A DNA stretch of 57,827 nt, from positions 1-57,827 of the IMG/VR virus record IMGVR_UViG_3300025536_000018; one strand, written 5' to 3'. The notes beneath the pieces were generated by a model. That model was not told the origin of the DNA. It was given only the letters and a program-made list of their open reading frames with translations, and searched no databases. Both the position numbers and the translations under genes were made by a program. This DNA comes from a virus. This document shows, one piece after another, positions 380-57,771 of this stretch (positions within the stretch are counted from its first letter, which is position 1; every line of letters begins with the position of its first letter).

Positions 380-392
380 GGAAGTTAGTTCT
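380..392. repeat. 13-bp palindrome site 1 (GGAAGTTAGTTCT)
   Basis: Member of the genome-wide GGAAGTNACTTCC family with two mismatches. It lies just beyond the 3' end of the leftmost gene, in non-coding DNA. Confidence 0.7.
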
Positions 393-398
393 ATGTGT

Positions 399-1187
399 CT
401 AGGGGTAGAGTAGCTTGACCGCCTCCAGGCCCGCCCGCTCCAGGTTCGTTAGGTCCGCCCTGCCGTCCAGGCTGGCCAGGGCCTCCCGCCATAGCTCCAG
501 GCGCTCCAGGCGTAGGGCCTCCCGTTCCTCCCGCTCCTTTGCCAGGCGGTCCCGCTCTATTGCCCGCTCCGCATCGCGTGCCGCCTCATCGGCCTTGCGC
601 TTGGCCAGGGCCGACTCCATCTCCGCAACCGTGGGAAGCTGGCCACGTTCAAAGGCCGTCCAGGCCGCCGCCGCCATGGCTTCCTTAGCCGTGAAATGCA
701 CGGGCCAGAATATCACGCGACTCGGTTCGCTATGCCCGCCGTTAAGCCACCGCTTAGCCTCAAACGAGTCCACCCGACTCCCGGATATGCAAGGCCCGTT
801 TTCATAGTAGCTATGCCGTTCCTCTGGACCCTTCAGGCGGTAGAGCTTCCAATGCGTGCCCCAACCCGAATCGCAAGACACATAGCCCCGCAATTCGCCG
901 TCAATCATCACGTCATAGCTAGAGCGCTGATAGGCGTTTATCGGCTCCGCCCGCTTCGCCAGGTCCAGGCGCGGCAACGTGGCGAGCTTCGCCTTGCCTA
1001 TGGCTTGCGCGCATTTAGGGCACGTCGCCAGGCGCGGGGAATCGAACGGCGCGGCCCGGTCATGTAAGCGCGACTCGCCGCACCACGATTCGGCCATGCC
1101 GCGCCCCGGATCATCCGCAAAGGGGTATTGATCCGGACTCCATCGCCGGAAGGCGCAAACCTTATGAACGCCGCGACTCCTGCCCAT
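399..1187 (-). CDS. Hypothetical protein with Cys-rich N-terminus and charged C-terminal helix
   Basis: 262 residues, family not recognised. The start chosen is the ATG at 1187, which shares its A with the TAA stop of the upstream gene (TAATG), a coupling seen four times in this arm; a longer frame from 1250 would overlap the neighbour more. The N-terminal third has a zinc-ribbon-like pair (a WCGES region and CPKC). The C-terminal 80 residues are rich in Arg, Glu and Ala and should form a long charged helix or coiled coil. It is the last gene of the leftward left-arm operon. Unusual base use (many GAGTC/GACTC) is shared with the whole arm. Confidence 0.75.
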   Translation of the reverse strand: MGRSRGVHKVCAFRRWSPDQYPFADDPGRGMAESWCGESRLHDRAAPFDSPRLATCPKCAQAIGKAKLATLPRLDLAKRAEPINAYQRSSYDVMIDGELRGYVSCDSGWGTHWKLYRLKGPEERHSYYENGPCISGSRVDSFEAKRWLNGGHSEPSRVIFWPVHFTAKEAMAAAAWTAFERGQLPTVAEMESALAKRKADEAARDAERAIERDRLAKEREEREALRLERLELWREALASLDGRADLTNLERAGLEAVKLLYP

Positions 1188-1639
1188 TAGACCGACTCGC
1201 CGATGATATGGGGGCCGCCCTCCAGGCCGGAATAAAGCGCCGTTTGCCACGGGATCGAATAGAAGCGGAAAGCGCCCGCCGTGCCCACGGCCTCAAATAT
1301 CGCCGCGTGCTGGCAATCGCCCGTTTCCTGATATCCGACAAGCCGGAAGCCGTGCAAGGCGGCCACCTTATCGGCCACCGGCTCCAGGCGCTTCCTATAT
1401 CGCTTGTCAGTGAGGAGTCGCACGCCGGAAGCGTGCAAATCGCCCCGCACTAGCGGCTTGTGGCGCTCCAGGGCGTCCAGGGCGGCCCGCACTTCGTCCG
1501 CCGTGGCGGCGCACCTGTTGCCGCTCCAGCCCCGCGCTAGGCGGGTGACGTGATTCAGGGCCTTGCGGAGTCCTATCACGTTCGTTTTTGTGACGTTGCC
1601 CGACTCAATCGCGGCAAGGTGACGTTGCATTGCGTTCAT
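1187..1639 (-). CDS. Hypothetical protein
   Basis: 150 residues, not recognised. ATG at 1639 follows the arm's standard leader (GCTTTCAAAGGAGCGAATC), which supplies the AGGAG ribosome binding site. The protein is basic in its first half and ends in an aromatic, mixed alpha/beta-looking stretch. The stop overlaps the next start (TAATG), so translation of the two genes is probably coupled. Soluble and cytoplasmic by composition. Confidence 0.8.
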   Translation of the reverse strand: MNAMQRHLAAIESGNVTKTNVIGLRKALNHVTRLARGWSGNRCAATADEVRAALDALERHKPLVRGDLHASGVRLLTDKRYRKRLEPVADKVAALHGFRLVGYQETGDCQHAAIFEAVGTAGAFRFYSIPWQTALYSGLEGGPHIIGESV

Positions 1640-1670
1640 TTGATTCGCTCCTTTGAAAGCGGGTTAAAGT

Positions 1671-1865
1671 TCAATTGTCGCCAGGGCGATTCGTGCCGCC
1701 GATGAACCGGCCCGCGCCGCCCTGAAGGCGAGTCGCGGCGATATCGTCCCGGCGTTGCGATTCCGCACATTCGCGCTTGATCCGGCTCCACAGTGTCGCG
1801 CCGCCGATGATAGCGGCGAAGGTGACGAGTCCGACAAGGGCGGCGATAAGGTCAGGTCCAAACAT
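1671..1865 (-). CDS. Small single-pass membrane protein
   Basis: 64 residues. Start is the ATG at 1865 preceded by GGAGTGATTCGA; an in-frame GTG three codons upstream lies inside the ribosome binding site and is less likely. Residues 4-25 form one hydrophobic helix (LIAALVGLVTFAAIIGGATL), followed by a basic cytoplasmic-looking tail. No family recognised. It is preceded by a putative promoter overlapping an operator-like palindrome at 1897-1933. Confidence 0.75.
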   Translation of the reverse strand: MFGPDLIAALVGLVTFAAIIGGATLWSRIKRECAESQRRDDIAATRLQGGAGRFIGGTNRPGDN

Positions 1866-1896
1866 TCGAATCACTCCGTTCCGTTGTTACTCACTC

Positions 1897-1933
1897 CGTA
1901 TAGCGGAGAAAGTCCTAACAGGAAGTTAATTCC
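1897..1933 (-). promoter_or_regulatory. Putative leftward promoter overlapped by palindrome site 2
   Basis: On the minus strand a -10-like TATACG (1897-1902) sits 18 bp after the palindrome GGAATTAACTTCC (1921-1933), so the palindrome covers the -35 position. The 9-mer TCCGCTATA at the -10 is repeated exactly in the promoter at 2446-2482, which has the same spacing. This argues that the pair is a real promoter plus operator class. Confidence 0.55.
1921..1933. repeat. 13-bp palindrome site 2 (GGAAGTTAATTCC)
   Basis: One mismatch in the core. It lies just upstream of the stop end of the 1926-2408 gene and at the -35 position of the putative promoter for the gene at 1671-1865. Confidence 0.8.
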
Positions 1934-2408
1934 GGCCGATTATCTCCGCCCCGGCAAGGTTGCCCTCCCGGCCGTCCGCCACCCGATAGCCCCGGATCAT
2001 AAGGAAGCCGGAGTCCACTTCATAACCAGTGACGCAACAAACGACTCCGCCGATTGCCCGCACTTCCTGCCCTACCGTGGGCACGGGTTGCTTACCGCTC
2101 CACACTGGCCAGCCGCCACGGTTCGCCAGGCGCTTGCCTTTCCACTTCGCTTTGACGTGGGGCGGGATCAAGCCGCGCCGGATATCGGCCGCCACCTTTG
2201 CCGCCCGCTCCGCTTTGACATACTCCCGCAACTTGCGAGTCGCGTTAGGGCCGTGGAAGGCGACAACGTGGCCCGTTGCCGGGTTGAACCGATAGAAGCG
2301 GGAAAGGTGCGCCGCATCGCCGCACTTGATCCACTGGCCAGGCTGGAGCTTTGCGCGGGCGCTATCGTCCAGGGTCCAGATATCAGGGGCAGGGGTAAAC
2401 TTAGCCAT
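1926..2408 (-). CDS. Hypothetical protein
   Basis: 160 residues, not recognised. ATG at 2408 follows GCTTTCAACGGAGCGACTC, the shared left-arm leader. The protein is basic in the middle (around residues 60-95) and ends with a Gly- and Val-rich beta-looking region. The last codons fall inside palindrome site 2, so stop region and operator overlap. Confidence 0.8.
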   Translation of the reverse strand: MAKFTPAPDIWTLDDSARAKLQPGQWIKCGDAAHLSRFYRFNPATGHVVAFHGPNATRKLREYVKAERAAKVAADIRRGLIPPHVKAKWKGKRLANRGGWPVWSGKQPVPTVGQEVRAIGGVVCCVTGYEVDSGFLMIRGYRVADGREGNLAGAEIIGRN

Positions 2409-2445: not shown

Positions 2446-2482
2446 TCTATAGCGGATGATTCGTTAATAGGAAGTTACTTCC
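2446..2482 (-). promoter_or_regulatory. Putative leftward promoter overlapped by palindrome site 3
   Basis: Minus-strand TATAGA (-10, 2446-2451) lies 18 bp after a perfect GGAAGTAACTTCC (2470-2482), the same geometry and same TCCGCTATA word as the promoter at 1897. It would drive the gene ending at 1926. A bound protein would occlude the -35. Confidence 0.55.
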
Positions 2483-2667: not shown

Positions 2668-2680
2668 GGAAGTTAGTTCC
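2668..2680. repeat. 13-bp palindrome site 4 (GGAAGTTAGTTCC)
   Basis: One core mismatch. It contains the TAA stop of the upstream gene (2673-2675) and lies 28 bp upstream of the next start. Confidence 0.85.
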
Positions 2681-4572: not shown

Positions 4573-4800
4573 TTAACAGGAAGTTACTTCCGCCGTAAAA
4601 ATATACACCGGGGCGCTAGGCTCCGTCGCGGCCAGGCCCGCCTGGTTCCACCTGTTGACTAGCTCCAGGAAGTCCAGGCGGCCGCCCGTCCGATTGCCGC
4701 CGCCTAGTTGCATGGCGACTCGCACCGGGTCCAGGCTAAGCGATTCGACGTGGCGGGAGCCGTCAGGCCGAATCGCGGTGCGGGTGTAACGGTGCGCCAT
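4573..4800 (-). CDS. Small hypothetical protein
   Basis: 75 residues, coupled by TAATG to the gene upstream. The C-terminus AEVTSC is encoded by a perfect palindrome copy (4579-4591). Gly-rich middle (LGGGNRTGGR). Not recognised. Confidence 0.75.
   Translation of the reverse strand: MAHRYTRTAIRPDGSRHVESLSLDPVRVAMQLGGGNRTGGRLDFLELVNRWNQAGLAATEPSAPVYIFTAEVTSC
4579..4591. repeat. 13-bp palindrome site 5 (perfect)
   Basis: Perfect GGAAGTTACTTCC at the 3' end of the 75-residue gene (encodes EVTS), about 60 bp upstream of the next leftward start at 4519. Confidence 0.9.
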
Positions 4801-5745: not shown

Positions 5746-5758
5746 GGAAGCAACTTCC
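5746..5758. repeat. 13-bp palindrome site 6 (GGAAGCAACTTCC)
   Basis: One core mismatch. Non-coding, immediately upstream of the -35 of the leftward promoter. Confidence 0.85.
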
Positions 5759-6114: not shown

Positions 6115-6402
6115 GTGGCCGACACCAATGCCACTATCACTTCCATGGCCAAGCAACTGAAGGAGGGAGAATCGGTCAGCCGATCCAAGCGTATCCCCCT
6201 GGACGAACTCGATCCCAAGAAGGTATCGAAGAAGCTGGCCTCCATGCGGAACAGCATGAACCAGATTGCGGCACGGGCGCGTGAAGCAACCGGAAGTGAC
6301 TTCCGCGTCGAGAGCGGCCAGTTCATCACCTATGACGGTGCGGCCGTTGTCCTGACCTGTGTGCTGACGTGCATGGAGGATGACGGCGAAGACGATATCT
6401 GA
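6115..6402 (+). CDS. Small early protein with acidic C-terminus
   Basis: 95 residues from a GTG at 6115 preceded by AAGGAG. First gene of the rightward early operon, directly after the strong promoter. Charged helical protein; residues 60-64 (GSDF) are encoded by palindrome site 7. The C-terminus EDDGEDDI belongs to a set of acidic tails ending in a hydrophobic residue found in several proteins here. Function unknown. Confidence 0.8.
   Translation: MADTNATITSMAKQLKEGESVSRSKRIPLDELDPKKVSKKLASMRNSMNQIAARAREATGSDFRVESGQFITYDGAAVVLTCVLTCMEDDGEDDI
6292..6304. repeat. 13-bp palindrome site 7 (GGAAGTGACTTCC)
   Basis: Perfect palindromic arms with centre G, inside the first early gene, read as GSDF. 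Confidence 0.88.
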
Positions 6403-7139: not shown

Positions 7140-8350
7140 CCGACACTCTCCACCAGGAGCCGGAGCGCGACCAGTTCAAGACCGAGTCGCCGATCCGCGC
7201 CTTCACCACCTGGACCGTCCAGGGCCTCTACGCGCTCGGCAAGGGCTTCCGGCCGTCACTGGCGCACCTGGTCCCCTATCTGCACGCCATGGAGAGCAAG
7301 GAGGGCTGGCAACTGGTCCAGGTGCTCGAAGCCGGGACGCAAACGCCGAGCTTCATCTTCAGGCAAAGCCGGGTGATCCCGGATGAAGTGCTCATCGACC
7401 GATTGCGCGGCGACGATGGCTTCAAGCAGTCGATCCGCGACTTGCTCAACGATGGCGAGTCCGAGCGCGTCCACCTGACCCTATCGTGCGACACCACGGC
7501 GGCCAAAGTCAGCGTGGGCCTCCGTCAAGTGACGGGTGATATGCAATCGGCGATAGACGATTCCTGGAATGACGGGGCGTGCATGTCGCGCTCGACACTC
7601 GAAGACTTCATCGACCGGATCAACGGATACGCGGCCGAACTCGGCACGGTCGAAGAGCCGTTCGTCCGCAACCGCGAGGGATTCGAGGAAGCGGGCCGGA
7701 AGATCGACCAGGCCCGTGATATGTCGGCCGATCTGGATGGCTTCGGCGAACCAGCCGTGCCGACGCCAACCTATCCCATCATGCCGGAGATCGCCGAGAA
7801 GCCAGCCGCCCGCGCCATGGCCTCCAGGATGGACCAGCACGACTACGGCGACATGCAACCGGAAGACGAACCGCTCGGCACTCTCTACGACATGACACCC
7901 CCTGCCGAGGCAATTGGCGGTCAACCCCCTGCCGAGGCAATTGGCGATGATCCGATCAATCCGAAGCACTACGGCGGGACCGCGTGCGCGGAGATCGGCG
8001 AGCTTCTGACCGCCAACAGCTACCAGGTGCTCAAATACAACTGGCGGCTCGGCGAGAAGGACAGTCCGTGCGTCGAGATCGGCAAGAGCATCTGGTATCT
8101 CGACCGCGAGCTTGCCATGATCGCCGAAGGGCACACCTTCATCCCCGGCGATGATCGCCTGCCGGATCACACCTTCTTCGACCACCGCCTCCGGGGACGT
8201 AGCGAGCACACCGCCAAGGTCGCCCGCTCGCTCATCTCCTGGAACCGCTACGGCAACCCGGAGACCCTGAAGTTACTTCGGCGCGTGCTCCAGGGTGAAC
8301 TGGACCGGCTCGACGGTTGCAAGGATTGGGGAAGCGGGCTGGCGATATGA
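7136..8350 (+). CDS. DUF3310-containing early protein
   Basis: 404 residues; ATG at 7136 overlaps the upstream stop (ATGA). The C-terminal 130 residues carry DUF3310 features: a DPINPKHYGG start and a K-Y-x-W-R-L-G-E-K segment, a small phage domain often annotated as SaV-like or nucleotide-kinase-like, of uncertain function. The first 250 residues are not recognised. A linker holds a tandem PPAEAIG duplication caused by a 27-bp repeat (7897-7946). Palindrome site 8 lies near the 3' end, encoding KLLR. Confidence 0.75.
   Translation: MTDTLHQEPERDQFKTESPIRAFTTWTVQGLYALGKGFRPSLAHLVPYLHAMESKEGWQLVQVLEAGTQTPSFIFRQSRVIPDEVLIDRLRGDDGFKQSIRDLLNDGESERVHLTLSCDTTAAKVSVGLRQVTGDMQSAIDDSWNDGACMSRSTLEDFIDRINGYAAELGTVEEPFVRNREGFEEAGRKIDQARDMSADLDGFGEPAVPTPTYPIMPEIAEKPAARAMASRMDQHDYGDMQPEDEPLGTLYDMTPPAEAIGGQPPAEAIGDDPINPKHYGGTACAEIGELLTANSYQVLKYNWRLGEKDSPCVEIGKSIWYLDRELAMIAEGHTFIPGDDRLPDHTFFDHRLRGRSEHTAKVARSLISWNRYGNPETLKLLRRVLQGELDRLDGCKDWGSGLAI
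7897..7946 (+). repeat. Tandem duplication, 27-bp period
   Basis: A 23-base unit at 7897-7919 recurs exactly at 7924-7946 and duplicates PPAEAIG just before the DUF3310 domain. Likely a slippage product in a flexible linker. Confidence 0.85.
8268..8280. repeat. 13-bp palindrome site 8 (TGAAGTTACTTCG)
   Basis: All ten core bases kept; outer pair lost. Inside the DUF3310 gene, read as KLLR. Confidence 0.85.
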
Positions 8351-9857: not shown

Positions 9858-10639
9858 CGAGCGTTCCGACTAATTCGTCCATCAAGGGCCGTGGCACCCG
9901 CCATAACCCGCGATCCTATTCAACTTGGGAGTGGACCCGCGCCTACCTGGTGCTGGCTTTGCTCCTGCCGCTGTTCCCGGTGATGATCCTTCTCTCCGGC
10001 CGCACGCTCCCCGATTGGGCCACCAGGAAGTTACTTCGCGCTCATCGTCGGTGGACCGCCGCCAACGCCATGGACTTCCGGATACCCCCTAACGAGGCAA
10101 TCCCTGTTTACATGCAACGCTGGTGGCGCGTGCCGCGCAATTGGGCGTTCAACATCTACTATCACATCGTCCGCCGCTCGGACGACGACCGGGCGCTCCA
10201 CGATCATCCGTGGTTCTCCTTCTCCATCGTGCTCGACGGTGGCTATAACGAACATGAGATCAAGGAAGGCGGCATCCACACTCGCACCTGGTATGGGCCT
10301 GGCGCGATGCGGTTCCGATGGCACGGCCGCAAGGCGCACCGGCTCGAACTGAAGCAGCACCACCCGGCCGATGGATGGCCCCCGGAGATGACGACGATGC
10401 GCCTGGCTGACTTCAACGATATCTGCACGGCAGGAGACGGCGCTTTTGAACTCCCGGCCACCACAATCTTCATCACGGGGCCAGTGCTCCGCCGATGGGG
10501 CTTCCACGCCGCCGAGCACGGCTGGATCGACGCTTACGATTGGGACGCCTTTTGCGAGGCGAACGGCATTGCAGCAATGCGGATGGACGGAGGCTCCGAC
10601 GCCGTTGTCTCCAGCCGCAACCTACACAAGGATAATTGA
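9854..10639 (+). CDS. Cupin-like protein with N-terminal membrane segment
   Basis: 261 residues; ATGA overlap at 9854. A hydrophobic segment at about residues 30-50 (YLVLALLLPLFPVMILL) would anchor it in the membrane. The C-terminal two thirds look like a cupin barrel: ALHDHPW with two candidate metal His, a Gly-rich turn, and HGRKAHRLEL as the second motif. Similar cupin-like proteins occur in other phages without a known reaction. Palindrome site 9 encodes KLLR just after the membrane segment. Confidence 0.65.
   Translation: MTSVPTNSSIKGRGTRHNPRSYSTWEWTRAYLVLALLLPLFPVMILLSGRTLPDWATRKLLRAHRRWTAANAMDFRIPPNEAIPVYMQRWWRVPRNWAFNIYYHIVRRSDDDRALHDHPWFSFSIVLDGGYNEHEIKEGGIHTRTWYGPGAMRFRWHGRKAHRLELKQHHPADGWPPEMTTMRLADFNDICTAGDGAFELPATTIFITGPVLRRWGFHAAEHGWIDAYDWDAFCEANGIAAMRMDGGSDAVVSSRNLHKDN
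10026..10038. repeat. 13-bp palindrome site 9 (GGAAGTTACTTCG)
   Basis: Core intact. Inside the cupin-like gene, read as RKLLR. Confidence 0.88.
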
Positions 10640-12183: not shown

Positions 12184-12196
12184 GGAAGTAACTTCT
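12184..12196. repeat. 13-bp palindrome site 10 (GGAAGTAACTTCT)
   Basis: Core intact. In the leader between the 12104 promoter and the ribosome binding site (AGGAGG) of the gene at 12214. Confidence 0.88.
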
Positions 12197-13370: not shown

Positions 13371-14075
13371 ATGCCTACCACCAAGCAAATCGAAAACATC
13401 CTCTATGACTTCATCGGCCAGGGCGGCGGAGACGGCGACACGATCACCGAATACGCCGAGAAGATCGCGGCGCTGTTCGATGACAACGGCGTGATCCTGA
13501 CGGCCGCCGCGCAACTGGAGAACGAAGTTACTTCGACGCTCATGGATATGACGGTCGCCACGGTGCTCGCCACGCTCATCGAAGAAGAAGGCGGCGGCCG
13601 GTCCAATATCAGCATCTCCCCGATGTCGATGGACCACATGCAACAGCACTACCTATACGAAGTGCGTAACGAAGGCATGATACGCCATGTGAGTATCAAG
13701 CTCCGCGAAGACAGCCCGCTCCAGAAGGAAGAGAACTGGCGCGAGCCGTCGAACCGGCACGCCCTGGTCGATACCGCCCCTGATTCGCTCACCATCGACC
13801 AGTTGAAGCCGCAAGCCGAGCCGAAGGAATACAAGCGGCCGGTATGGGCGGTGCGGTTCTGGTGCGCTACCGGCGACGGCTTCCGGCCGGAACTACGGGC
13901 GTGCGCGGATCGCGACGACGCCGCGCGGACGGTCAGAGGATACCACGACGACGATGGGCGGCCGGATGCTGCTATCGAGAATCGTTGGTGTTTGCACGAA
14001 GACTGTCCCACTTCGGGATGCAACCATGATCCGAAGCTCCGGGACGAACCGGAAGCAACTTCCGAGGCTGAATAG
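13371..14075 (+). CDS. Hypothetical protein with Cys-rich C-terminus
   Basis: 234 residues, ATG at 13371 two bases after the previous stop. N-terminal helices (TKQIENILYDFIG) contain NEVTS encoded by palindrome site 11; the C-terminus ends in a CLHEDCPTSGCNH cluster and PEATSEAE encoded by site 12. Two operator-like sites in one gene, the second directly at the promoter of the gapR-like gene. Confidence 0.78.
   Translation: MPTTKQIENILYDFIGQGGGDGDTITEYAEKIAALFDDNGVILTAAAQLENEVTSTLMDMTVATVLATLIEEEGGGRSNISISPMSMDHMQQHYLYEVRNEGMIRHVSIKLREDSPLQKEENWREPSNRHALVDTAPDSLTIDQLKPQAEPKEYKRPVWAVRFWCATGDGFRPELRACADRDDAARTVRGYHDDDGRPDAAIENRWCLHEDCPTSGCNHDPKLRDEPEATSEAE
13523..13535. repeat. 13-bp palindrome site 11 (CGAAGTTACTTCG)
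   Basis: Core intact, and the outer pair is also complementary (C/G). In the 13371 gene, read as EVTS. Confidence 0.88.
14051..14063. repeat. 13-bp palindrome site 12 (GGAAGCAACTTCC)
   Basis: One core mismatch. Encodes EATS at the end of the 13371 gene and lies 15 bp upstream of the -35 of the gapR/parB-like promoter, so it could control both regulators. Confidence 0.88.
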
Positions 14076-15882: not shown

Positions 15883-15895
15883 GGAAGTAACTTCG
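15883..15895. repeat. 13-bp palindrome site 13 (GGAAGTAACTTCG), on a ribosome binding site
   Basis: Core intact. The site ends directly before the ATG at 15896 and its GGAAG half is the only Shine-Dalgarno-like sequence there, so binding at DNA level or the RNA hairpin itself could control the gene. Confidence 0.9.
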
Positions 15896-19252: not shown

Positions 19253-19265
19253 GGAAGTTACTTCG
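19253..19265. repeat. 13-bp palindrome site 14 (GGAAGTTACTTCG)
   Basis: Core intact, non-coding, 6 bp upstream of the -35 of the lysis promoter. Confidence 0.9.
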
Positions 19266-19292: not shown

Positions 19293-19305
19293 AGAAGTTA
19301 CTTCC
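19293..19305. repeat. 13-bp palindrome site 15 (AGAAGTTACTTCC)
   Basis: Core intact, non-coding, 40 bp centre-to-centre from site 14, close to four helical turns. Confidence 0.88.
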
Positions 19306-34315: not shown

Positions 34316-34328
34316 GGAAGTTACTTCC
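34316..34328. repeat. 13-bp palindrome site 23 (perfect), before a ribosome binding site
   Basis: Perfect copy, non-coding, abutting the AGGAG of the gene at 34307. Confidence 0.9.
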
Positions 34329-43862: not shown

Positions 43863-45486
43863 GGGTGGTCCTCCGTTCGTTGTCGTTCGCGAACCGTGCC
43901 CTCGCTGCACGGATAAACTTGAAGAGTCGCTCTTGGCCTTTGTGCTTGTCTTCCAAGCACTCATAAACCAGTTCGTCGTAGGTATCAACGCAAGTCAACT
44001 GCCAAACGCGAACTAACTTCCGCTGTCCTTGCCTGGCCAGGCGTCCGATGACTTGCTCGTAAAGCTCCCGGCTGTAGAACGGATCGAAGATCGCGATGTC
44101 GTGGCCTGGACCCTTCTGAAGGTTGAGACCGTGACCGGCGCTCGCCGGGTGAACCAGGAGCATCTTGATCTTCCCGGCGTTCCAGGCGTCCTTGCACTTT
44201 GCCTCGCGGTCCATGACCACCGCATCCGGGAAAGCCTTCTTCAGCCGCGCCAGGGTGGACTGGAACCAGTATGTCACCATGAGCGGTTCGCCGTCGAGTT
44301 CGTCCACCAACTGTTTCAGGTCTTCGATCTTCTCGTCATGCACGGCGACGACTTGCTTCTCGGCGTCATAGACGGCACCGGCCGATAGCTGGAGCAACTT
44401 GTTGAACAGCGCCCCGGCGCTCATCGCTTCGATGATGTCGTCATCAAGCTCCAGGATGAAGTTGCGCTCGAAGTCGCGGTAACGCTCCTGGATATCGGTC
44501 GGCAAGACCACGCGGCGCTTGATCGGCACCCAATCTTCGACCTTCACATAGTCGCGCACATCCGCCAGCTTCACCACCTTGCAGATGTCCGCGATCTTCG
44601 TGCCGATCCGCTTGTCATTGCCCCGGCGAAGATGCCACTTCCGATTCGGAAGCTCCTTGAAATACTTCATGTGGTAGCTTCGCATCGAATTGCCGAGACG
44701 CTTGCCGCGATCCAGGAGGAACAACTGTGCGAACAGCCCCTCATAGCTCTCGCTCGCGGGAGAGGCCGTCAACTGGTGCATCCGCTTCATCCGGCCGCGC
44801 GCCTTGTTGAGCGCTTTCCACCGGGCCGTTGACGGGTCTTTGAACTTCGAGCTTTCGTCCAGGAAGCACACATCGTAGGGCCAGGTCTCGCCGGTTATTT
44901 GACCGCGCTTCTCCCAATACTCCACCAGCCAAACCAGTTGTTCGACATTGATGATGTGAAGCTCTGTGTCCTCCAGGGCGAGCCGTTGGCGCTTCGCCTC
45001 CTTGGCGGCCTGGCGATAGGGGGACGCCTTCCTGGCGGCGTTCCTGGCGGCAACGCGGGGCGTCTCGCCGACACGGCGTTCGGCCGCGTAGAAGCGATCA
45101 TAGTGCTCCTTGTAGATCGCCTTGATATCGTCGTCGGAATCTTCAGCGCGGATCAATGTGTATTCGATCCCGGCCGCTTGCTTCCATTCCTTGATCTCTT
45201 CCGGCCAGGTTGAACGGGCCACGCGGAGAGGGGCGATCACCAGGGCCTTGCCGCGCCATCCATCGTTCAAGAGATCGGACAGGAGGGTGAGCGCGATCAC
45301 CGACTTTCCCAGGCCCACGTCGATGAACAGCGCGGAGTAGGGATTCTTCTTCAGGTGCTTGACGCAAGACCGCTGGTAGGGGTGCAAGTCATCACGCCCA
45401 CGGATCACCTTTCCGTAGGTCTCCTGGAACCAGGAAGCGAGATCAAACCGCTGTTCTGCTATATCTCTAGCAAGCATCGGCCCCAT
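43846..45486 (-). CDS. SNF2/DEAD-type phage helicase
   Basis: 546 residues. Superfamily 2 helicase: DVGLGKSV Walker A (about 55-62), VIAPLRVA motif Ia, FLDESSKFK as motif II (DESS, common in phage SNF2-like helicases), LTASPASESYEGL motif III, HPASAGHGLNLQ and QVIGRLARQGQ motifs V and VI. Probably moves on DNA during replication or recombination. Start at 45486 or ATG at 45477. Palindrome site 30 is read as KLVR. Confidence 0.9.
   Translation of the reverse strand: MGPMLARDIAEQRFDLASWFQETYGKVIRGRDDLHPYQRSCVKHLKKNPYSALFIDVGLGKSVIALTLLSDLLNDGWRGKALVIAPLRVARSTWPEEIKEWKQAAGIEYTLIRAEDSDDDIKAIYKEHYDRFYAAERRVGETPRVAARNAARKASPYRQAAKEAKRQRLALEDTELHIINVEQLVWLVEYWEKRGQITGETWPYDVCFLDESSKFKDPSTARWKALNKARGRMKRMHQLTASPASESYEGLFAQLFLLDRGKRLGNSMRSYHMKYFKELPNRKWHLRRGNDKRIGTKIADICKVVKLADVRDYVKVEDWVPIKRRVVLPTDIQERYRDFERNFILELDDDIIEAMSAGALFNKLLQLSAGAVYDAEKQVVAVHDEKIEDLKQLVDELDGEPLMVTYWFQSTLARLKKAFPDAVVMDREAKCKDAWNAGKIKMLLVHPASAGHGLNLQKGPGHDIAIFDPFYSRELYEQVIGRLARQGQRKLVRVWQLTCVDTYDELVYECLEDKHKGQERLFKFIRAARARFANDNERRTTRVKAA
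44009..44021. repeat. 13-bp palindrome site 30 (CGAACTAACTTCC)
   Basis: One core mismatch; in the helicase gene, read as KLVR. Confidence 0.72.
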
Positions 45487-45829
45487 ACTTCTTTCGGATC
45501 ACGCGGGCGGCGAACTCCGGATAGACGACTTTGTAACCGCCAGGATCGAGTCGAACTAACTTCCGATATCCGGCCACGCTATCGGTCCACCATGCTTCGA
45601 CACCCGCGTTCCGCATCTCCCATATCCGGAGGAACTGTTGTGCGCTCGGCTTGCGTCCTGGAACCTTGAACTCGATATGGATGGCACCGCCGCTCACCTT
45701 CTCGGCGAACGTGTCGGGGAAGCCGTTGATCGACTTGCCTTCGACTTGCCAGAAGATGAGATCGTTCGGGCGCGCGTGGTCGTCCCGGCACTCATCCTTT
45801 ATCGCGCCTTCAGGTTGCCGCCGTCCCAT
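45467..45829 (-). CDS. VRR-NUC domain nuclease
   Basis: 120 residues from ATG at 45829. The core IHIEFKVPGRKPSAQQF has the VRR-NUC (PD-(D/E)XK) catalytic pattern with E-x-K and a conserved Gln; D/N residues upstream (NDLIFW, NGFPDTF) complete it. Such stand-alone domains in phages probably resolve branched DNA. Gene order helicase-VRR-NUC-methylase-polymerase is common in siphoviruses. Palindrome site 31 is read as KLVR. Confidence 0.85.
   Translation of the reverse strand: MGRRQPEGAIKDECRDDHARPNDLIFWQVEGKSINGFPDTFAEKVSGGAIHIEFKVPGRKPSAQQFLRIWEMRNAGVEAWWTDSVAGYRKLVRLDPGGYKVVYPEFAARVIRKKYGADAC
45552..45564. repeat. 13-bp palindrome site 31 (CGAACTAACTTCC)
   Basis: One core mismatch; in the VRR-NUC gene, read as KLVR. 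Confidence 0.72.
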
Positions 45830-46719
45830 GCCGCCATCGCCTTTGCCAGTTCGTCCAGTTCGCCTTCGAGCACTTGCATCGCGGGCTTCAGGCCCGTTCC
45901 GCCGTAGCCGGGATACTTGCGGCGGATCAAAGGCTCCGCCACGCACATCCGCTCGGCTATCGGCAGCGCGGCGTTCTCACCTGACCAGATGTTCCACATG
46001 CAATCCATGAGCGGACTGTTCCCGCGTTCCTTCGCCAGGAAGGCGAGCCGCCACGTCAGCTTCAACTCCAGGTCGGGCATGTGATCCAGCCACAGTCCCG
46101 CGCTTCGGCCGCCCACGTTCCAGTAGGTTTGCTTCAGAAGCATGGCGACGTTCGGCGTGAACAGAAGCGAGCGCCGGATGAACTCTTCGGCCAGGCTGAA
46201 GGGCGGGTTGGTCACGATGGCGTCGATGTCGCCGATCTCCCATCCCCACTTCGCCTTCGGGTGCTCTGCGAGAAAGTCCAGGCCGCCATAGCCGTAGCCA
46301 GGATACTCGCGGAGATCGGTGGCGATCACTTCAAAGCCGTGCCATTCGAGCACGCGAGCGAGGCGACCATCGCCGCACGCCGGTTCCCATATCCGCTTGA
46401 TCGGCGAGCCGTCCGGACGCTTCATCGCCTTCAGCGCGGGGATGAGGCTTTCGGTGCCGTCCACGGGCGTCGGATATAGATCGGCTGGCTTGCGCTCCCA
46501 CTTCTTGTAGGACGTGATGATCGCGTCGGCGATGCTCTGCCCCTTTGCGGTGTGCGGGATCGCTTCGATGATGTCGGAAATAACTTCCGGCTCCTTCAAG
46601 CCCTGGTCCCGCGCCGCCTGGCGGAAGCGCGGTTCATCGGTCACATCGGAAGCGAAAGGGTCCGAACAGAACTCATCCCAAAACAGGGATTCAGAGTCGG
46701 CGTCGAAGTAAAGTCTCAT
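45799..46719 (-). CDS. DNA N6-adenine methyltransferase-like protein
   Basis: 306 residues from ATG at 46719 (GGAAGG upstream). SAM-binding motif WEPACGDGRLARVL and the catalytic NPPF typical of adenine/cytosine-N4 methyltransferases. C-terminal part (MQVLEGELDELAK) may be a recognition region. Target unknown. A GANTC-like specificity would be notable given the left-arm GANTC enrichment, but nothing in the sequence shows specificity. Palindrome site 32 is read as EVIS. Confidence 0.85.
   Translation of the reverse strand: MRLYFDADSESLFWDEFCSDPFASDVTDEPRFRQAARDQGLKEPEVISDIIEAIPHTAKGQSIADAIITSYKKWERKPADLYPTPVDGTESLIPALKAMKRPDGSPIKRIWEPACGDGRLARVLEWHGFEVIATDLREYPGYGYGGLDFLAEHPKAKWGWEIGDIDAIVTNPPFSLAEEFIRRSLLFTPNVAMLLKQTYWNVGGRSAGLWLDHMPDLELKLTWRLAFLAKERGNSPLMDCMWNIWSGENAALPIAERMCVAEPLIRRKYPGYGGTGLKPAMQVLEGELDELAKAMAAWDGGNLKAR
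46576..46588. repeat. 13-bp palindrome site 32 (GGAAATAACTTCC)
   Basis: One core mismatch; in the methyltransferase gene, read as EVIS. Confidence 0.78.
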
Positions 46720-48888: not shown

Positions 48889-48901
48889 GGAAGTTACTTC
48901 C
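48889..48901. repeat. 13-bp palindrome site 33 (perfect), on a ribosome binding site
   Basis: Perfect copy one base upstream of the polymerase GTG; its GGAAG half serves as the Shine-Dalgarno. Confidence 0.92.
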
Positions 48902-49809: not shown

Positions 49810-51204
49810 TTATTCGGTGTCCAGATCGTCATGATTCCGGAACACATCGGTATCCTTCGGCAAAGCCTTCCTACGGTCGGACTTTTGCGCCAGGGTCTTC
49901 TGACCGGGCGGTTGCACGGCCAGTCCTGCTTCGGCCAAGAGCTTCTTGGCATCCACAAGTTTCATCTTCAGCTTTGTGTGAAGCATACGCTCCATCTCGG
50001 CCGGAGATAGCATGACGGTTTTGAACATATACCGCCGTTTAAGTCCCGCTTCCTCCAGGGTCTCAACGATGAAGTCTTCATCGTCAACCCATTTGCGGAG
50101 CGTGCGGCCCATAACCAGTTTCCACCAGGTAAGCTCTTCTTCGTCGGAGATCGCCCGATCAAGTAGCTCCGCCTGGATCGCGTTGAAGAAGTTCTCCATC
50201 AACTTGCGGTAGCGAAGTAACTTCTCCATCGCCTTGGTGTTGAGTTCGGCTGGCTTCGGGAGATCGGGGAAGGGCGACGGCGCGAACTCATCCAGGATGA
50301 CCGCGTTAGCTCCTTGCATCCGCTCTTCGGAAATAACTTCCTCCCACTCGCCTTCGATCACGTCTTCGTCGTCATCGTGGTTGCGAAAGCCAGCGTCGGC
50401 GGTCTCTTCCGCCATGAACAGATACAGGGCGGGGCACTTGGCACGGATCGCGCACCATCGGCAACCCTTGATCGACGGCACGCGGCCCTTCGGGTTGGCC
50501 CATGTGTATGCCCACTTCGAGCGGATCATATCGGCGAACTCGATAAGCTCTTGGCGCGAGATCGTCACTTCGCTGTAGCCGTGCGTCAGGCGCGGCTGGC
50601 TAATGCAAAGGGTAATCTCCTGGAAGTTGTAGAGCCAATCGAACTCCAGGAAGACGCCCCAAGCGTAGATGCCGAGTTGCTTGTTAATCGTCTCTGTGAC
50701 CGGATCGAAGGCCAGGACCGGCTCCTTGCCATACTTCAGGTCCACGATCTTGATCCAGCCTGGCCCCATGCCGCCGAAGTCGAGCGTGCCGCCCTGGTCG
50801 GGAATCGGCGTCAGGTCGGAGATGTCCACATGCCGTTCGGTGAAGCTCTCTTCGGAGATCGCCGCGAGCGCCTGGCAGCGGCGCACGAAGTCCCCGACGA
50901 ACTCCATCATCTCTTCGTCAATGTCGATGGTGAAGTCTTTAACGGTGCGCGTGCGGCCGATCCAGCGATCCGGTCGGCGGCCGGTCTTCAACCAGCGCTC
51001 CGCGAGCCAATGCGCGACCGTGCCGGTTGCCGAATCAATGTTGGTATCGTCTTCAGCCAGGGCGTTGATAACCAGGCTCTCCGGACAGGTCGTTGTCATC
51101 TCCGCGCCGGAAGGTGAGAATACGCTGTGCCCGCCTGCCATCTTCTTGGCGATTTGAGCGGCCGTCAGGGGGCCACGGATGGCTGGTAGCTTATGCTCGC
51201 TCAC
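49810..51204 (-). CDS. DUF2800 PD-(D/E)XK nuclease (recombination exonuclease)
   Basis: 464 residues. Nuclease core with GTVAHWLAERW, the GGTLDFGG and KIVDLKYGK motifs (catalytic D and E/D-x-K) and a Cys cluster GCRWCAIRAKC as in iron-sulfur RecB-like nucleases. DUF2800 genes commonly sit next to DUF2815 SSB genes. Two palindromes lie inside: site 34 (KLLR) and site 35 (EVIS). Probably processes DNA ends for recombination. Confidence 0.85.
   Translation of the reverse strand: MSEHKLPAIRGPLTAAQIAKKMAGGHSVFSPSGAEMTTTCPESLVINALAEDDTNIDSATGTVAHWLAERWLKTGRRPDRWIGRTRTVKDFTIDIDEEMMEFVGDFVRRCQALAAISEESFTERHVDISDLTPIPDQGGTLDFGGMGPGWIKIVDLKYGKEPVLAFDPVTETINKQLGIYAWGVFLEFDWLYNFQEITLCISQPRLTHGYSEVTISRQELIEFADMIRSKWAYTWANPKGRVPSIKGCRWCAIRAKCPALYLFMAEETADAGFRNHDDDEDVIEGEWEEVISEERMQGANAVILDEFAPSPFPDLPKPAELNTKAMEKLLRYRKLMENFFNAIQAELLDRAISDEEELTWWKLVMGRTLRKWVDDEDFIVETLEEAGLKRRYMFKTVMLSPAEMERMLHTKLKMKLVDAKKLLAEAGLAVQPPGQKTLAQKSDRRKALPKDTDVFRNHDDLDTE
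50213..50225. repeat. 13-bp palindrome site 34 (CGAAGTAACTTCT)
   Basis: Core intact; in the DUF2800 gene, read as KLLR. Confidence 0.84.
50329..50341. repeat. 13-bp palindrome site 35 (GGAAATAACTTCC)
   Basis: One core mismatch; in the DUF2800 gene, read as EVIS. Confidence 0.78.
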
Positions 51205-51757: not shown

Positions 51758-51770
51758 CGAAGTAACTTCC
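51758..51770. repeat. 13-bp palindrome site 36 (CGAAGTAACTTCC)
   Basis: Core intact, non-coding, 17 bp upstream of the ATG at 51740. Confidence 0.87.
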
Positions 51771-52741: not shown

Positions 52742-55210
52742 GTGCCAACCAAGTATCTACAAAAATATGCGCTGCGAGTAGTCGAAAACGGATACGACAT
52801 CTGTTTCATTCGGCCGGGAGAGAAGCGCCCCTTCGGGAAAGATTGGGAGGCCAAGCGGCACGGCCCCAAGCGGATCGCATCGGCTATAGAGGCCGGTCGC
52901 GGTGACTTCGGCATAGGGATCAAAACGCGGGAGACGCCTGGCGTCGATATCGACTGCTACGACGAAGAGCTTGTCGATCACATGATCCGGGTCACGGGGG
53001 AACTGTGCGGCGAAACTCTCCAGCGCGTCGGCCTCGCCCCCAAGACGCTCCTGGTCTATCGCTCCGAAGACCCGTTCCCCAAGACGCAATCGAAGGTCTT
53101 CATTGACGACGAAGGCCGGTCGGTGAAGCTGGAAGTGTTGAGCGACGGCCAGCAATTCGTGGCGCTCCACATCCACCCTGACACGAACAAGCCCTATCGC
53201 TGGAAAGACAAGCGTTCCGTGCTCGACGTGGCGCAAGACGAACTGCCGGTGATCGAACATGACGATGCCCTGGAGATCGTCGCCGAGTTCGAGCGCCAGG
53301 CCCGCAAGCGCGGCTGGCAGGAGAAGAGCACCGTCAAGCGGCTAACCGATCAACGTAGCCGGGGCAAGGAATACAACTACGACGATCCCTTCATCTCGGA
53401 CAAGTCGAAGGTCGATCTCTCGCCGGAGCAATTGCTGAAGAAGCTCCACAGCGTCCCCAACGCTGACGACTATGACACCTGGTTCCATGTTGGCATGGCG
53501 CTCTACCACCAGTTTGACGGCTCCGATGAGGGCTTGATGATGTGGCATGAGTGGTCGGCGACCGCGCCGAACTACGACATGGACGCGCTGGATGAGAAGT
53601 GGCCGACCTTCGATGTCGAAGGCAAGAAGCGCGAGCCGATCACCGCTCGATTCATCCTGAAGCAAGCCGTCGCCGAGGAAGAGCGGCTGGCAGGAGAGGA
53701 ACTGGATGAGATCAAGGACGATATCCGTAATGCGGGCGACCACCGCGAGTTCCAGTCGGTGATGGACAAGATCAAGCACCTGGCCTTCTCGCCGATGATC
53801 CGAGAGTCCCTGGTCGTGATGCTGAAGGAGCGGATCAAGAAGGCGACGGACGTGATGATGCCGGTGACGATGATCCGTCGCGCCATTGCGTTCGAGAATC
53901 CGGAGCATCGGTCGACTCCCGCCTGGCTCCGCGATTGGGTCTTCATCCAACAGGACGAAACCTTCTATCACGTCAAAACCAGGCAAGTGCTGTCCACCAA
54001 GGCGTTCGATCTATCGTTCGGCCGGTTCCTCCTGACGAAGAAAGACATCCTGGAGGGCCTGTCCACGCCGGAGCACTCGGCCTCGCATGTCGCCGTTCAC
54101 CGCTACCAGATACCAGCCGTCGCGAACAAGATGTATGTGCCGTGGGAGGACCAGTTCTTCGACGCCAACAAGCTAAGCTATGTGAATAGCTACAGCGATG
54201 CGACCGTGCCGCACGACATCCCGGAGACGTTGAGCGCCAAGCAGCGCAAGCTGTGCGAGCGCGTGGAACGCCACCTGGAGCACCTATTCCGCAATGATCG
54301 CGACCGGAAGTTACTTCTTAGCTGGTTGGCCTACATCGTGCAGACTGGCGGCAAGGTGAACTGGTCTCCGGTCGTCCAGGGTGTCGAGAACGATGGCAAG
54401 AGCTTCTTCGGCCGCATGATGGCGGCGGTGATCGGCGGCGAGAACGTCAACGTCATCAACGGGGACGCCTTCAGCGAGCAATATACGCCGTGGGCGGAGG
54501 GTTGCCAGTTCCTCATGGTGGAGGAAGTCCGGTTGCACGGGCAGGATCGCTTCGCCGTAATCAACAAGGTGAAGCCCTACATCTCGAACGACATGGTTTC
54601 GATCCGCCGCATGAGGACGGACACCTACAAGGTCATCAACACCGTCAACTACTTCCTGACGACGAACCACAAAGACGGCGTGCCGGTCAACGAGAACTCG
54701 ACGCGCTACTTCCCGATGTTCTCGCGCTGGCAGACAAAGCGAGCGCTCGACAAGTTCAACGCGGCGAATCCGGACTACTATGTGAAGTTGCACGAAGTCT
54801 TGGACCACCCGGAAGTGTTGCGCCGCTGGCTCCTGGACTACGAGCTTCACGAAGAGTTCGATCCGATCACCCGCGCAACCGAAAGCTCCAGCCTCAACGA
54901 GATGCGGTATCTCAACCAAACCGAAGAGGAAGAGGGCCTGGCCGAGATACTGGACGGCAGCGACGATCCGGAGCTTTGCCGGGAACTGGTCAATTCGGCC
55001 AGGCTCGCCGACGCAATGCAGGACAAGGGCATCCCGGTCCCCTACGGGCAGGCGTGGAAGCGCTTGATGTCGGAGCGTGGCTTCACGCCGCTCGGCAAGG
55101 TCAAGGTCGGCGGGAAGTCGGCTACCTATTGGAGCCAGGAGCCGGATCAATTCATGATCGGCGACAAGACGGACACACAAGCGATCCGCGATTGGGTTGA
55201 GCCGATCTAA
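52742..55210 (+). CDS. Primase-helicase (Prim-Pol, PriCT-2, D5/DUF5906)
   Basis: 822 residues from GTG at 52742 with GGAGTGATTCGC upstream, the leader used in the left arm. Domains: bifunctional primase/polymerase (about 20-200) with GVDIDCYD acidic motif; PriCT-2 (about 235-310, PNADDYDTWFHVGMALYHQF); superfamily 3-like helicase with Walker A GVENDGKS near 545-552, MVEEV Walker B and FLTTNHKDGVPV sensor. It would prime and unwind phage DNA. Palindrome site 37 is read as KLLL. Confidence 0.9.
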   Translation: MPTKYLQKYALRVVENGYDICFIRPGEKRPFGKDWEAKRHGPKRIASAIEAGRGDFGIGIKTRETPGVDIDCYDEELVDHMIRVTGELCGETLQRVGLAPKTLLVYRSEDPFPKTQSKVFIDDEGRSVKLEVLSDGQQFVALHIHPDTNKPYRWKDKRSVLDVAQDELPVIEHDDALEIVAEFERQARKRGWQEKSTVKRLTDQRSRGKEYNYDDPFISDKSKVDLSPEQLLKKLHSVPNADDYDTWFHVGMALYHQFDGSDEGLMMWHEWSATAPNYDMDALDEKWPTFDVEGKKREPITARFILKQAVAEEERLAGEELDEIKDDIRNAGDHREFQSVMDKIKHLAFSPMIRESLVVMLKERIKKATDVMMPVTMIRRAIAFENPEHRSTPAWLRDWVFIQQDETFYHVKTRQVLSTKAFDLSFGRFLLTKKDILEGLSTPEHSASHVAVHRYQIPAVANKMYVPWEDQFFDANKLSYVNSYSDATVPHDIPETLSAKQRKLCERVERHLEHLFRNDRDRKLLLSWLAYIVQTGGKVNWSPVVQGVENDGKSFFGRMMAAVIGGENVNVINGDAFSEQYTPWAEGCQFLMVEEVRLHGQDRFAVINKVKPYISNDMVSIRRMRTDTYKVINTVNYFLTTNHKDGVPVNENSTRYFPMFSRWQTKRALDKFNAANPDYYVKLHEVLDHPEVLRRWLLDYELHEEFDPITRATESSSLNEMRYLNQTEEEEGLAEILDGSDDPELCRELVNSARLADAMQDKGIPVPYGQAWKRLMSERGFTPLGKVKVGGKSATYWSQEPDQFMIGDKTDTQAIRDWVEPI
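54306..54318. repeat. 13-bp palindrome site 37 (GGAAGTTACTTCT)
   Basis: Core intact; in the primase-helicase gene, read as KLLL. Confidence 0.86.
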
Positions 55211-56684: not shown

Positions 56685-56994
56685 GGGCCGCCCCGAACAG
56701 ATGACATACCACGATTCCTTCAGCTTCGATCACCGACTTGTCGCCATAGGTGATCCGCTCATAGACGATGTGGCCGCCTTCCGTGGTCGGATCGTCCAGT
56801 TGGAGGATCAAGCCGTCGCCCCCGTCCAAGGCACCAGGCGGTGCGTCGAGAACGGCTTGCTGCCACAGGGCTTTGACGAGAGATGTGCGATCCGAGAGGA
56901 TGGCGGGCGTGATCTCGACAGCTACCAGCCGAGCGCCAGGCCCGAACGCGGCCTCCAGGAACTCATCGAACGGTGTCTTTGTCATGCCGATCAT
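56677..56994 (-). CDS. Small hypothetical protein
   Basis: 105 residues from ATG at 56994 (ATG at 56985 possible). Acidic, mixed alpha/beta (ARLVAVEITPAILSDRTSLV). Not recognised. Confidence 0.7.
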   Translation of the reverse strand: MIGMTKTPFDEFLEAAFGPGARLVAVEITPAILSDRTSLVKALWQQAVLDAPPGALDGGDGLILQLDDPTTEGGHIVYERITYGDKSVIEAEGIVVCHLFGAARG

Positions 56995-56995
56995 C

Positions 56996-57361
56996 CTACT
57001 CGCTTTCGTCGGCTTTGCCAAGGCGGCGGGCGGCAACACCGTTGTTCGTCATCTCGACGCGGTAGGTCTCTCCGCAAGCCTGGCAATCGACGCGGCGGTG
57101 GGACGGATCGGCCGAAGTAACTTCCTTCAGACTGTTGAACGTCCGACATTCGGGGCACACACCTTGCATCATCGCTGCCGCATCGGCGCGGGGCCGATAA
57201 GTGAGATCGGCGGCGATCATGGCAGCGAACCAGAACGCAATGGAGGCGCTGGTGGTGGCTGGCACGATCCAGGCGATGCTGGAAAAAGGCACTCCAGCGA
57301 GCGCGAGAGCCAGGAAAGCGGCGGTGGCGGAGATAGCCGCGACGGCGATTAAACGGTGCAT
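56996..57361 (-). CDS. Membrane protein with zinc ribbon
   Basis: 121 residues from ATG at 57361 (GGAGG upstream). Two hydrophobic helices (about 4-24 and 30-50), then a four-Cys ribbon (CPEC and CQAC) with EVTS of palindrome site 38 between the pairs. Same architecture as the early protein at 12214: two helices and then a ribbon. First gene of the right-end operon. Confidence 0.78.
   Translation of the reverse strand: MHRLIAVAAISATAAFLALALAGVPFSSIAWIVPATTSASIAFWFAAMIAADLTYRPRADAAAMMQGVCPECRTFNSLKEVTSADPSHRRVDCQACGETYRVEMTNNGVAARRLGKADESE
57113..57125. repeat. 13-bp palindrome site 38 (CGAAGTAACTTCC)
   Basis: Core intact; in the membrane/zinc-ribbon gene, read as EVTS. Confidence 0.86.
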
Positions 57362-57389
57362 TTTCGTCCTCCGAATCAGTGATACGATC

Positions 57390-57418
57390 CGTGTAGCCGA
57401 TTCGGGGAGACCTGACAA
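57390..57418 (-). promoter_or_regulatory. Putative leftward promoter of the right-end operon
   Basis: Minus strand TTGTCA (57413-57418), 17-bp spacer, TACACG (57390-57395), 29 bp before the ATG at 57361. Confidence 0.55.
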
Positions 57419-57440
57419 GGGTTCCGATAGGGGCACCACA

Positions 57441-57466
57441 TACACGGTTCGATCAAGCTACACGGT
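57441..57466. repeat. TACACGGT direct repeats near the right-end promoter
   Basis: TACACGGT at 57441-57448 and 57459-57466, 18 bp apart, with an inverted CCGTGTA copy over the -10 at 57389-57395. Possible operator set separate from the 13-bp palindrome. Confidence 0.45.
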
Positions 57467-57758
57467 CTAATCGGCTATGCGGACTGGTATATGATTTGAC
57501 CACCAACGGCATGGGAAGCCGTAGCTACGCAAAACCTGTAACCGATTTTAATTGGAACCAGAGCAATTAGAACCTGAATATCTGCACCGATTAACAGCGT
57601 TGTATTTAATAGCTTTTTTAGCGTCAGGTTCCGAAGTTCCAATAGTTCCAATTACTCTGAAAGACAGTGTATTTTTTGACAACATTCTCTCCAAATCTAG
57701 GGGATAGTCCAGCTACATATCGGATCGGAACCTGACTACGCTCTTCGGATAACCGTAT

Positions 57759-57771
57759 GGAAGTGACTTCC
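57759..57771. repeat. 13-bp palindrome site 39 (GGAAGTGACTTCC)
   Basis: Perfect arms with centre G; non-coding, 45 bp from the right terminal repeat. Confidence 0.88.

Follow-up and report, generated by a model that had tools for sequence, protein, structure and literature searches.

A conserved genome-wide palindrome and its candidate ParB/KorB-like reader in a virus genome

The palindrome GAAGT-N-ACTTC occurs throughout the 57,827-bp virus record IMGVR_UViG_3300025536_000018, which was analysed over its full length and is called the window below. In total, 41 sites were found, of which 23 were perfect and 18 had one core change. Shuffled controls and related phages confirm that this genome-wide palindrome is real and not a product of chance. 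Its reader is very probably the ParB-like protein encoded at 14480-15676, as judged from sequence comparisons. Taken as a whole, the data are best explained by a lone ParB/KorB-like protein that would load at the sites all over the genome, an explanation that we consider likely.

An earlier note on this DNA had reported 23 perfect sites, which our recount reproduced exactly, and 16 more with one or two core changes. The one-change class stood (18 sites by our count), whereas the two-change class did not, as its 12 matches were at chance level. Allowing up to two mismatches gave 53 sites, compared with 16.6 ± 3.6 in 100 dinucleotide shuffles (largest value 25). In 500 shuffles that preserved synonymous codons, perfect sites averaged 0.87 (maximum 4) and sites with at most one mismatch averaged 4.45 (maximum 10). 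Because these shuffles still yield some sites, chance may account for a small number of the 18 one-change sites. Patterns with scrambled arms (58 draws) matched 0.97 times on average with at most one mismatch, and five times at most. The expectation of 0.06 perfect cores in the earlier note is near the value of 0.03 that follows from base composition, but Markov-3 and codon models give higher values, roughly 0.5-0.9. The same note had described a 13-bp palindrome, GGAAGT-N-ACTTCC. Its inner part was upheld, but the outer G/C flank is a preference (~61%) rather than fixed, and the full 13-mer GGAAGTNACTTCC is present at only 9 places in the window. Of the 23 perfect sites, 20 have A or T in the middle, and a variable-gap version of the pattern added nothing. 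A lack of excess over shuffles matched for codons or composition, and a lack of conservation in related phages, had been named as outcomes that would speak against the palindrome. Instead, 23 perfect sites stand against a maximum of 4, and the same sites recur in relatives, often at identical codons.

Whole-record counts covered 34 records of relatives, several of them short fragments, and 14 had a match. Perfect sites numbered 23, 26 and 26 in G002, G005 and G009 (full-length IMG/VR relatives), 25 in Erythrobacter phage R22L and 18 in BcepNazgul. Further counts were 13 in G010, 13 in G006, 11 in G007, 7 in G008, 7 in G012, 4 each in G001, G003 and G004, and 1 in G023; the remaining 20 records lacked GAAGT-N-ACTTC. 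Fragments of 22.7-36.5 kb carried 11-13 sites. Profile scans for relatives returned three when led by Carli and one when led by Nazgul, while of the single-protein scans one gave none and the other only BcepNazgul itself. Conservation was assessed in genes of at least 150 aa with a strong match, so that 4-8 of the 13 intragenic perfect sites could be aligned per relative. Identical sites were found at 8/8 positions in G002 (background 23%), 6/7 in G005 (6%), 5/7 in R22L (3%), 4/5 in G009 (2%) and 3/4 in G010 (2%). Since the intragenic sites are read in three codon phases (EVTS, GSYF/GSDF and xKLLR), their conservation is not caused by the protein sequence. The sites of the window are as follows.

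381..391, one mismatch, GAAGTTAGTTC
1922..1932, one mismatch, GAAGTTAATTC
2471..2481, perfect
2669..2679, one mismatch
4580..4590, perfect
5747..5757, one mismatch, GAAGCAACTTC
6293..6303, perfect; also perfect at matching codons in G002, G005 and G009, lost in R22L
8269..8279, perfect; kept in G002
10027..10037, perfect; kept in G002, G005, G009 and G010, not in R22L
12185..12195, perfect, intergenic
13524..13534, perfect; kept in G002
14052..14062, one mismatch; just 5' of the gapR-parB pair
15884..15894, perfect; 208 bp 3' of the ParB-like gene
16818..16828, one mismatch
19254..19264, perfect, intergenic; 40 bp from its partner site at 19294
19294..19304, perfect, intergenic
21506..21516, perfect, intergenic
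22793..22803, one mismatch; unconserved in aligned relatives, possibly chance
23942..23952, perfect, intergenic
26323..26333, one mismatch; conserved in neither G002 nor R22L
27747..27757, perfect, tape-measure gene; kept in G002, G005 and R22L
31015..31025, one mismatch, GAAGTTATTTC on the coding strand; same in five relatives, GAAATCATTTC in Carli
32878..32888, one mismatch; perfect in G005
32918..32928, one mismatch; same in G002, R22L, G009 and G010
34317..34327, perfect, intergenic; upstream of gene 33903-34307
36918..36928, perfect, protease gene; kept in G002 and R22L, 9/10 in G005
37713..37723, one mismatch; same in G002 and G005
38469..38479, perfect, portal gene; kept in G002, G005, G009 and G010, 9/10 in R22L
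40105..40115, one mismatch
41205..41215, perfect, TerL gene, GAAGTTACTTC; identical in G002, G005, R22L, G009 and G010, GAAATCATTTC in Carli with both arms changed
42557..42567, one mismatch
44010..44020, one mismatch; kept only in G002
45553..45563, one mismatch; kept only in G002
46577..46587, one mismatch; kept only in G002
48890..48900, perfect, intergenic
50214..50224, perfect, exonuclease gene; kept in G002, G005, R22L and BcepNazgul
50330..50340, one mismatch; weaker in relatives
51759..51769, perfect, intergenic
54307..54317, perfect, primase gene; kept in G005, R22L and G009, one mismatch in G002
57114..57124, perfect; kept in G002
57760..57770, perfect, intergenic, near the genome end

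Sphingomonas phage Carli has no GAAGT site, and all 30 of its 30 GGAA-5-TTCC matches read GGAAA-Y-S-R-TTTCC. As Carli has GAAATCATTTC at the orthologues of two window sites (41205 and 31015), the alignments indicate that the site family is shifted on both arms in this phage. AACT-N-AGTT sites were found in AH2 (5) and G011 (6), GAACT/ACTTC hybrid sites in G023 (8), and AAGT-N-ACTT sites in G012 (13, of which 7 are GAAGT). The degenerate pattern AASTNASTT exceeded its Markov-3 expectation in G012 (21 vs 2.4), G011 (11 vs 0.8), G023 (12 vs 1.6) and AH2 (8 vs 1.15), but not in the first 49 kb of chi (1 vs 1.05). An excess of TCGA-5-TCGA in AH2-type genomes was rejected as a candidate, because it gave no consistent single motif and was only moderately above Markov expectation (R22L, G023).

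The proposed reader and the gene directly upstream of it are:

14480..15676, + strand, ParB/KorB-like protein of 398 aa (PHROG 1033)
14142..14444, + strand, GapR-family nucleoid protein (Pfam GapR_DNA-bd, 87.8 bits), a possible partner

The ParB-like protein consists of a ParB-type N domain, a helix-turn-helix (HTH) with the helix TSRYLDDV, a Lys/Ala-rich histone-like tail and an acidic C-terminus. Pfam gave HTH_ParB at 24.8 bits (cut-off 22.6) and KorB at 23.1 bits (cut-off 22.3), with no match for the N domain at E 0.01. The AlphaFold2 (AF2) model of residues 1-260 had a predicted local distance difference test (pLDDT) score of 83.6. Its best fold match in the PDB was RK2 KorB (E 9e-8), followed by Noc and ParB, over ~200 columns; template modelling (TM) scores were modest (best 0.54/0.64) and identity to KorB was 16-17%. 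Profile matches pointed to the same proteins. The segments GHTRLxA and N...LTP.E align with GERRWRAV and N..REELTP.E of Noc, and G97, H98, R100, N144, L149 and E153 were invariant in 21 aligned rows (from 27 candidates; L035, L036, L038, L043 and L045 were not entered, and L046, which contains a stop, was removed). By its HTH and by its modelled N-terminal (NTPase) fold, the protein is assigned to the ParB/KorB superfamily, and the comparison with KorB made in the earlier note thus proved apt. We also observed DNA similar to the Lys/Ala-rich tail at 51860-52300 and 33987-34064; the product of the gene at 51860 is likewise Lys/Ala-rich and acidic and may be a second chromatin-like protein.

Several comparisons link this protein to the sites. 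The 76 window proteins were compared by tblastn with 15 genomes, some of them partial (E 1e-4). Apart from structural, packaging, tail and replication genes, only the ParB-like gene had a match in every one of R22L, G009, Carli, BcepNazgul and G012. Absence of the gene was studied in chi and in 11 records chosen among 316 with a TerL match. Ten Casjensviridae-type records had no ParB match (chi, the partial genome MA11, phiAxp-2, PM87, FoX4, A18P4, Clavibacter 33, AchV4, Enc34 and KPN N98), and all ten had 0 sites. Two others, SS2019XI and V18, also had 0 sites each, but were kept out of this group because of a distant (E 1.7e-20) and a weak, short, tail-confined (E 1.6e-4) ParB match, respectively; V18 is labelled 'no ParB' in the TerL tree. 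In that tree, G012 and G023, which have both ParB and sites, group with the ParB-less MA11, chi and PM87 (99/98), and the starred branches force at least two changes of the GAAGT label. Hence, the association of ParB with the sites is not the effect of one clade. Moreover, 14 distinct phages combine one or more GAAGT sites with a helix that could be read; in the 12 of them with dense sites, this helix is R-Y-[LI]-x-D. The other two, G012 (7 sites) and G023 (1 site), have a KYV helix and mixed sites. Elsewhere, Carli has RHLNN, and AH2 and G011 have KYV with AACT-N-AGTT.

For what this ParB family reads, we rate the evidence from a sister clade of ParB proteins as the strongest. In 11 of its 12 loci (L034-L043 and L045), a perfect palindrome of 15-21 bp containing AAAT-N-ATTT, of the type TAGATAAAT-N-ATTTATCTA, lies 3' of the parB stop. 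Its centre is 53-62 bp from the stop in ten loci and 160 bp in L039, with several loci being near-copies, and three loci additionally have GGTAAAT-N-ATTTACC 49 bp upstream. These parB-adjacent palindromes suggest that the ParB family reads AAxT-N-AxTT, and that the genome-wide sites would be an elaboration of this. Separately, a perfect palindrome GCAAAGTCACTTTGC lies ~2.2 kb upstream of parB in two sister-clade loci (L037:1242 and L043:1697). Pseudomonas phage SS2019XI (NC_053013; L089-L091), with its distant ParB, contains 12 CAAC-5-GTTG sites (0-3 in 15 Markov-3 runs) and is possibly another ParB/site pair by its sequence, but CAAC-5-GTTG is common in PCA1 (8) and G012 (7) too.

The sites are spread over the whole genome rather than gathered in a centromere-like cluster. 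The earlier description of sites about every 1.5 kb, in every module and both between and within genes, held: 10 of the 23 perfect sites are in noncoding DNA and 13 in genes, some of these deep in long genes (27747, 36918, 41205 and 54307). Noncoding DNA makes up 8.9% of the window (P 1e-5 for the enrichment, by our own gene map); in R22L, 9 of 25 perfect sites fall in the 6.1% that is noncoding. Several sites are within ~30 bp of gene starts or stops. For sites with at most one mismatch, the coefficient of variation of the spacing was 0.55 in the window, 0.54 in R22L, 0.56 in G005 and 0.39 in Carli (P<=0.0006 vs uniform placement), and spacing was over-even in the window, G002, G005, R22L, G009 and Carli (all P 0.0074 or less). 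The even spacing and the deep intragenic sites favour coverage of the genome, while the noncoding enrichment favours regulation.

In the mechanism that we propose, the palindromes are where the single ParB/KorB-like protein encoded by the phage would bind or load, with a dimer reading GAAGT-N-ACTTC through its HTH. With such sites in every module, the protein could occupy the whole phage genome; if it were a nucleoside triphosphate (NTP)-dependent sliding clamp, as ParB, Noc and KorB are, the whole genome would be coated. The likely outcome would be organisation of the whole genome (phage chromatin), dampened transcription or both, rather than segregation by ParA, and GapR and the Lys/Ala-rich tail may help to build such chromatin. 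No ParA of family PF13614 was matched, nor, in the window and its closest relatives, an integrase of family PF00589. The most economical model is a single KorB/Noc-like clamp that would load at many stations. Binding, dimerisation, nucleotide use, sliding and the biological purpose are all points that we infer. A role of the protein in coverage or architecture is plausible, with arguments for and against that we judge evenly balanced. More tentatively, an NTP-gated ParB-type clamp may coat the infecting or replicating genome from ~40 even stations. This would be a sequence-programmed chromatin, re-tuned together with the recognition helix in phages that infect Alpha- and Betaproteobacteria, and it would derive from an ancestor with its site only next to its own gene.

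The sites might instead be read by another protein, e.g., the Cro-like protein at 52553, GapR at 14142, the methyltransferase at 45799 or a host factor, in which case the ParB link would be hitch-hiking. Phage lineages have many genes in common, and the tested genomes are partly related. Among the candidates of the earlier note (14480, 52454 and 14142), 14480 survived the comparison as a conserved ParB-like protein, but GapR and the small Cro-like protein at 52553-52735 came out weaker, as neither had a tblastn match in BcepNazgul or G012. The methyltransferase had no tblastn match in Carli, BcepNazgul or G012. Given these missing matches in site-bearing phages, we rejected the three proteins as the conserved reader. 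BcepNazgul does have an annotated gene, Nazgul73, in the equivalent place before the primase, which may be a divergent homologue of 52553; the site-less chi likewise has a regulator gene before its primase. A single host factor is unlikely because the hosts are Erythrobacter, Sphingomonas and Burkholderia. With similar palindromes adjoining parB in the sister clade as well, we consider hitch-hiking improbable.

If the ParB-like protein is the reader, it could still act as a multi-operator repressor that works locally at each site, blocks initiation or elongation and times early and late genes, the spacing being incidental. The noncoding enrichment, the sites close to gene starts and stops, and the fact that the nearest fold, KorB, is a repressor agree with this possibility, which we nevertheless regard as rather unlikely given the intragenic majority of perfect sites and the over-even spacing across operons. 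Partition of a plasmid-like prophage by a ParABS-type system, suggested by the ParB homology, is much less probable. ParA-family PF13614 was unmatched in 11 of 11 genomes (14 of 14 controls matched) and in 9 further records, other ParA-type families not having been searched. Tyrosine integrase PF00589 was unmatched in the window, R22L, Carli, BcepNazgul, G002, G005, G009 and G023 (serine integrases were not searched), although present in AH2, G011 and G012. Moreover, the sites are dispersed. Thus, neither the ParA partner (PF13614) nor the clustered centromere of a ParABS partition system was found, and of the earlier proposal of a new genome-wide regulatory or segregation system, the conserved genome-wide system stands and the segregation does not. 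Hairpins acting in transcripts (GGAAG/CTTCC stems with a three-base loop) would explain the self-complementary word and the compensatory change in Carli. They are very doubtful, since the bases are fixed and not merely paired, loop T and A included, one-change sites disrupt pairing on one of the two strands, and the centre base is mostly A or T in the window and always G or C in Carli's 30 sites. Chance, codon usage or repeats could account for the two-change matches but for nothing among the perfect sites; the dinucleotide, Markov-3, scrambled-arm and codon-preserving controls and the positional conservation in five relatives refute this explanation for the perfect sites and for the one-change sites as a class, and its overall probability is negligible.

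Several observations weigh against genome-wide loading of the ParB-like protein. Spacing was not significantly even in BcepNazgul (P 0.10-0.18) and G012 (0.39-0.49), and with perfect sites only the evenness was weaker (P 0.03 in the window, 0.08 in G002 and 0.07 in G009; 4 of 8 genomes had P below 0.05). The intergenic enrichment is consistent with a regulator as well. The relation between helix and site is not one-to-one, as G012 has KYV yet 7 GAAGT sites, and common ancestry confounds it in part: the ParB tree, built without L012 (a fragment) and L033, L048, L049 and L050 (copies), requires two changes of the GAAGT label and is compatible with a single origin. The distant ParB homologues in PCA1, RG-2014 and SS2019XI go with no GAAGT site, and PCA1 and RG-2014 are without a clear genome-wide palindrome. 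A long palindrome next to parB is missing in L046, of the sister clade, and in L047. Furthermore, orthologues do not reach the Pfam cut-off for ParB (no match at E 0.01 in R22L and BcepNazgul, below cut-off in Carli), and use of cytidine triphosphate (CTP) by the protein is suggested by the modelled fold and the motif alignment only.

The window is probably the complete genome of a virulent Casjensviridae-type siphophage of bacteria. Its ends overlap by 12 bp (GCTCAGCGCCCC at 1-12 and 57816-57827), and as this matches the length of the cos overhangs annotated in BcepNazgul and Enc34 (12 bp each), it is probably complete and closed over cos. The GC content is 61%, and no tRNAs were found in the window. 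We predicted 76 proteins and searched 30 of these against PHROGs, which yielded head and tail proteins, DNA polymerase, primase, helicase, exonuclease and a gp2.5-like ssDNA-binding protein. TerL was 61% identical to that of R22L and ~49% to those of chi-type phages, while megablast of positions 1-25000 against phages gave no match. The consulted part of PMC12185513 assigns PQ394074 (R22L), there called R34L1, to Casjensviridae; PQ394074/PQ394075 are named R22L/R16L in GenBank-derived records and R34L1/R34L2 in that part. The tail-region protein at 19309-20745 matches many large baseplate and virion PHROGs, mostly in two stretches, and gives the impression of two tandem LamG-like domains. A cluster at 7136-12081 encodes nucleotide-kinase-like, thymidylate-synthase-like, cysteine-dioxygenase-like and pyrophosphatase-like proteins, which we take, from work on phages M6 and ViI, to suggest a thymidine hypermodification pathway.

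Phage ParB-like genes are numerous and their roles mostly unexplored; here, such a gene comes with its likely target. As ~40 sites are mapped, conserved and co-evolving, their function can be tested in isolates (Erythrobacter phage R22L, BcepNazgul and Carli). If the clamp model is true, the logic of ParB clamp and site has been turned from segregation to whole-genome coverage in viruses without ParA. The helix/site pairs form a natural series (GAAGT, GAAAT, AACT and mixed) that may also serve to study changes in ParB specificity. Our literature searches, for which subscription literature was mostly outside the scope, found nothing describing such a phage-wide ParB-site system, and searches with motif strings returned no phage paper by title. 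Term searches of the accessible text found no mention of palindromes, inverted repeats or ParB in PMC3483164 and none of palindromes in PMC12185513, and the consulted part of PMC12704722, which surveys ParB-fold proteins including those of phages, does not mention such sites.

Among known systems, the L5 stoperators invoked in the earlier note are not close. Mycobacteriophage L5 has ~30 dispersed 13-bp stoperators, many in short intergenic gaps, and these are asymmetric, oriented sites to which the immunity repressor of this temperate phage binds. By contrast, the window has palindromic sites, a ParB-fold candidate reader and no PF00589 match, nor was PF00589 matched in its closest relatives. 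The SP-beta prophage reportedly carries repeated operator elements throughout (MrpR/SPBRE), with an unrelated reader and as a lysogeny switch. Chromosomal and plasmid ParB-parS (ParABS) systems share the HTH_ParB, the ParB-type N domain and, in the sister clade, palindromes adjacent to parB, but here the sites belong to a phage without a PF13614 ParA match and are genome-wide instead of clustered. Noc of Bacillus and Geobacillus, a ParB paralogue that ranked high in both the fold and the profile comparison, has many dispersed Noc-binding sites (NBS), which are even-length palindromes; unlike the phage protein, it acts on the host chromosome in division control. RK2, with ~12 OB operators in 60 kb, resembles the window in having a ParB-fold protein with several palindromic operators across the genome, and KorB gives both the best fold match and a Pfam domain. 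According to the consulted part of PMC11790492, KorB is a CTP-dependent sliding clamp with long-range repression. The window differs from RK2 in being a phage with a different, odd-spaced site, ~40 sites in 58 kb, more than half of the perfect ones in genes, and a histone-like tail on the protein. A KorB-OB system proper was rejected, because the fold kinship is distant and the site differs from the OB sequence. Hence, multi-site ParB-fold regulators such as KorB and Noc are known, and what is new, within the literature found, is a phage-wide, evenly spaced and co-evolving set of sites without a PF13614 ParA.

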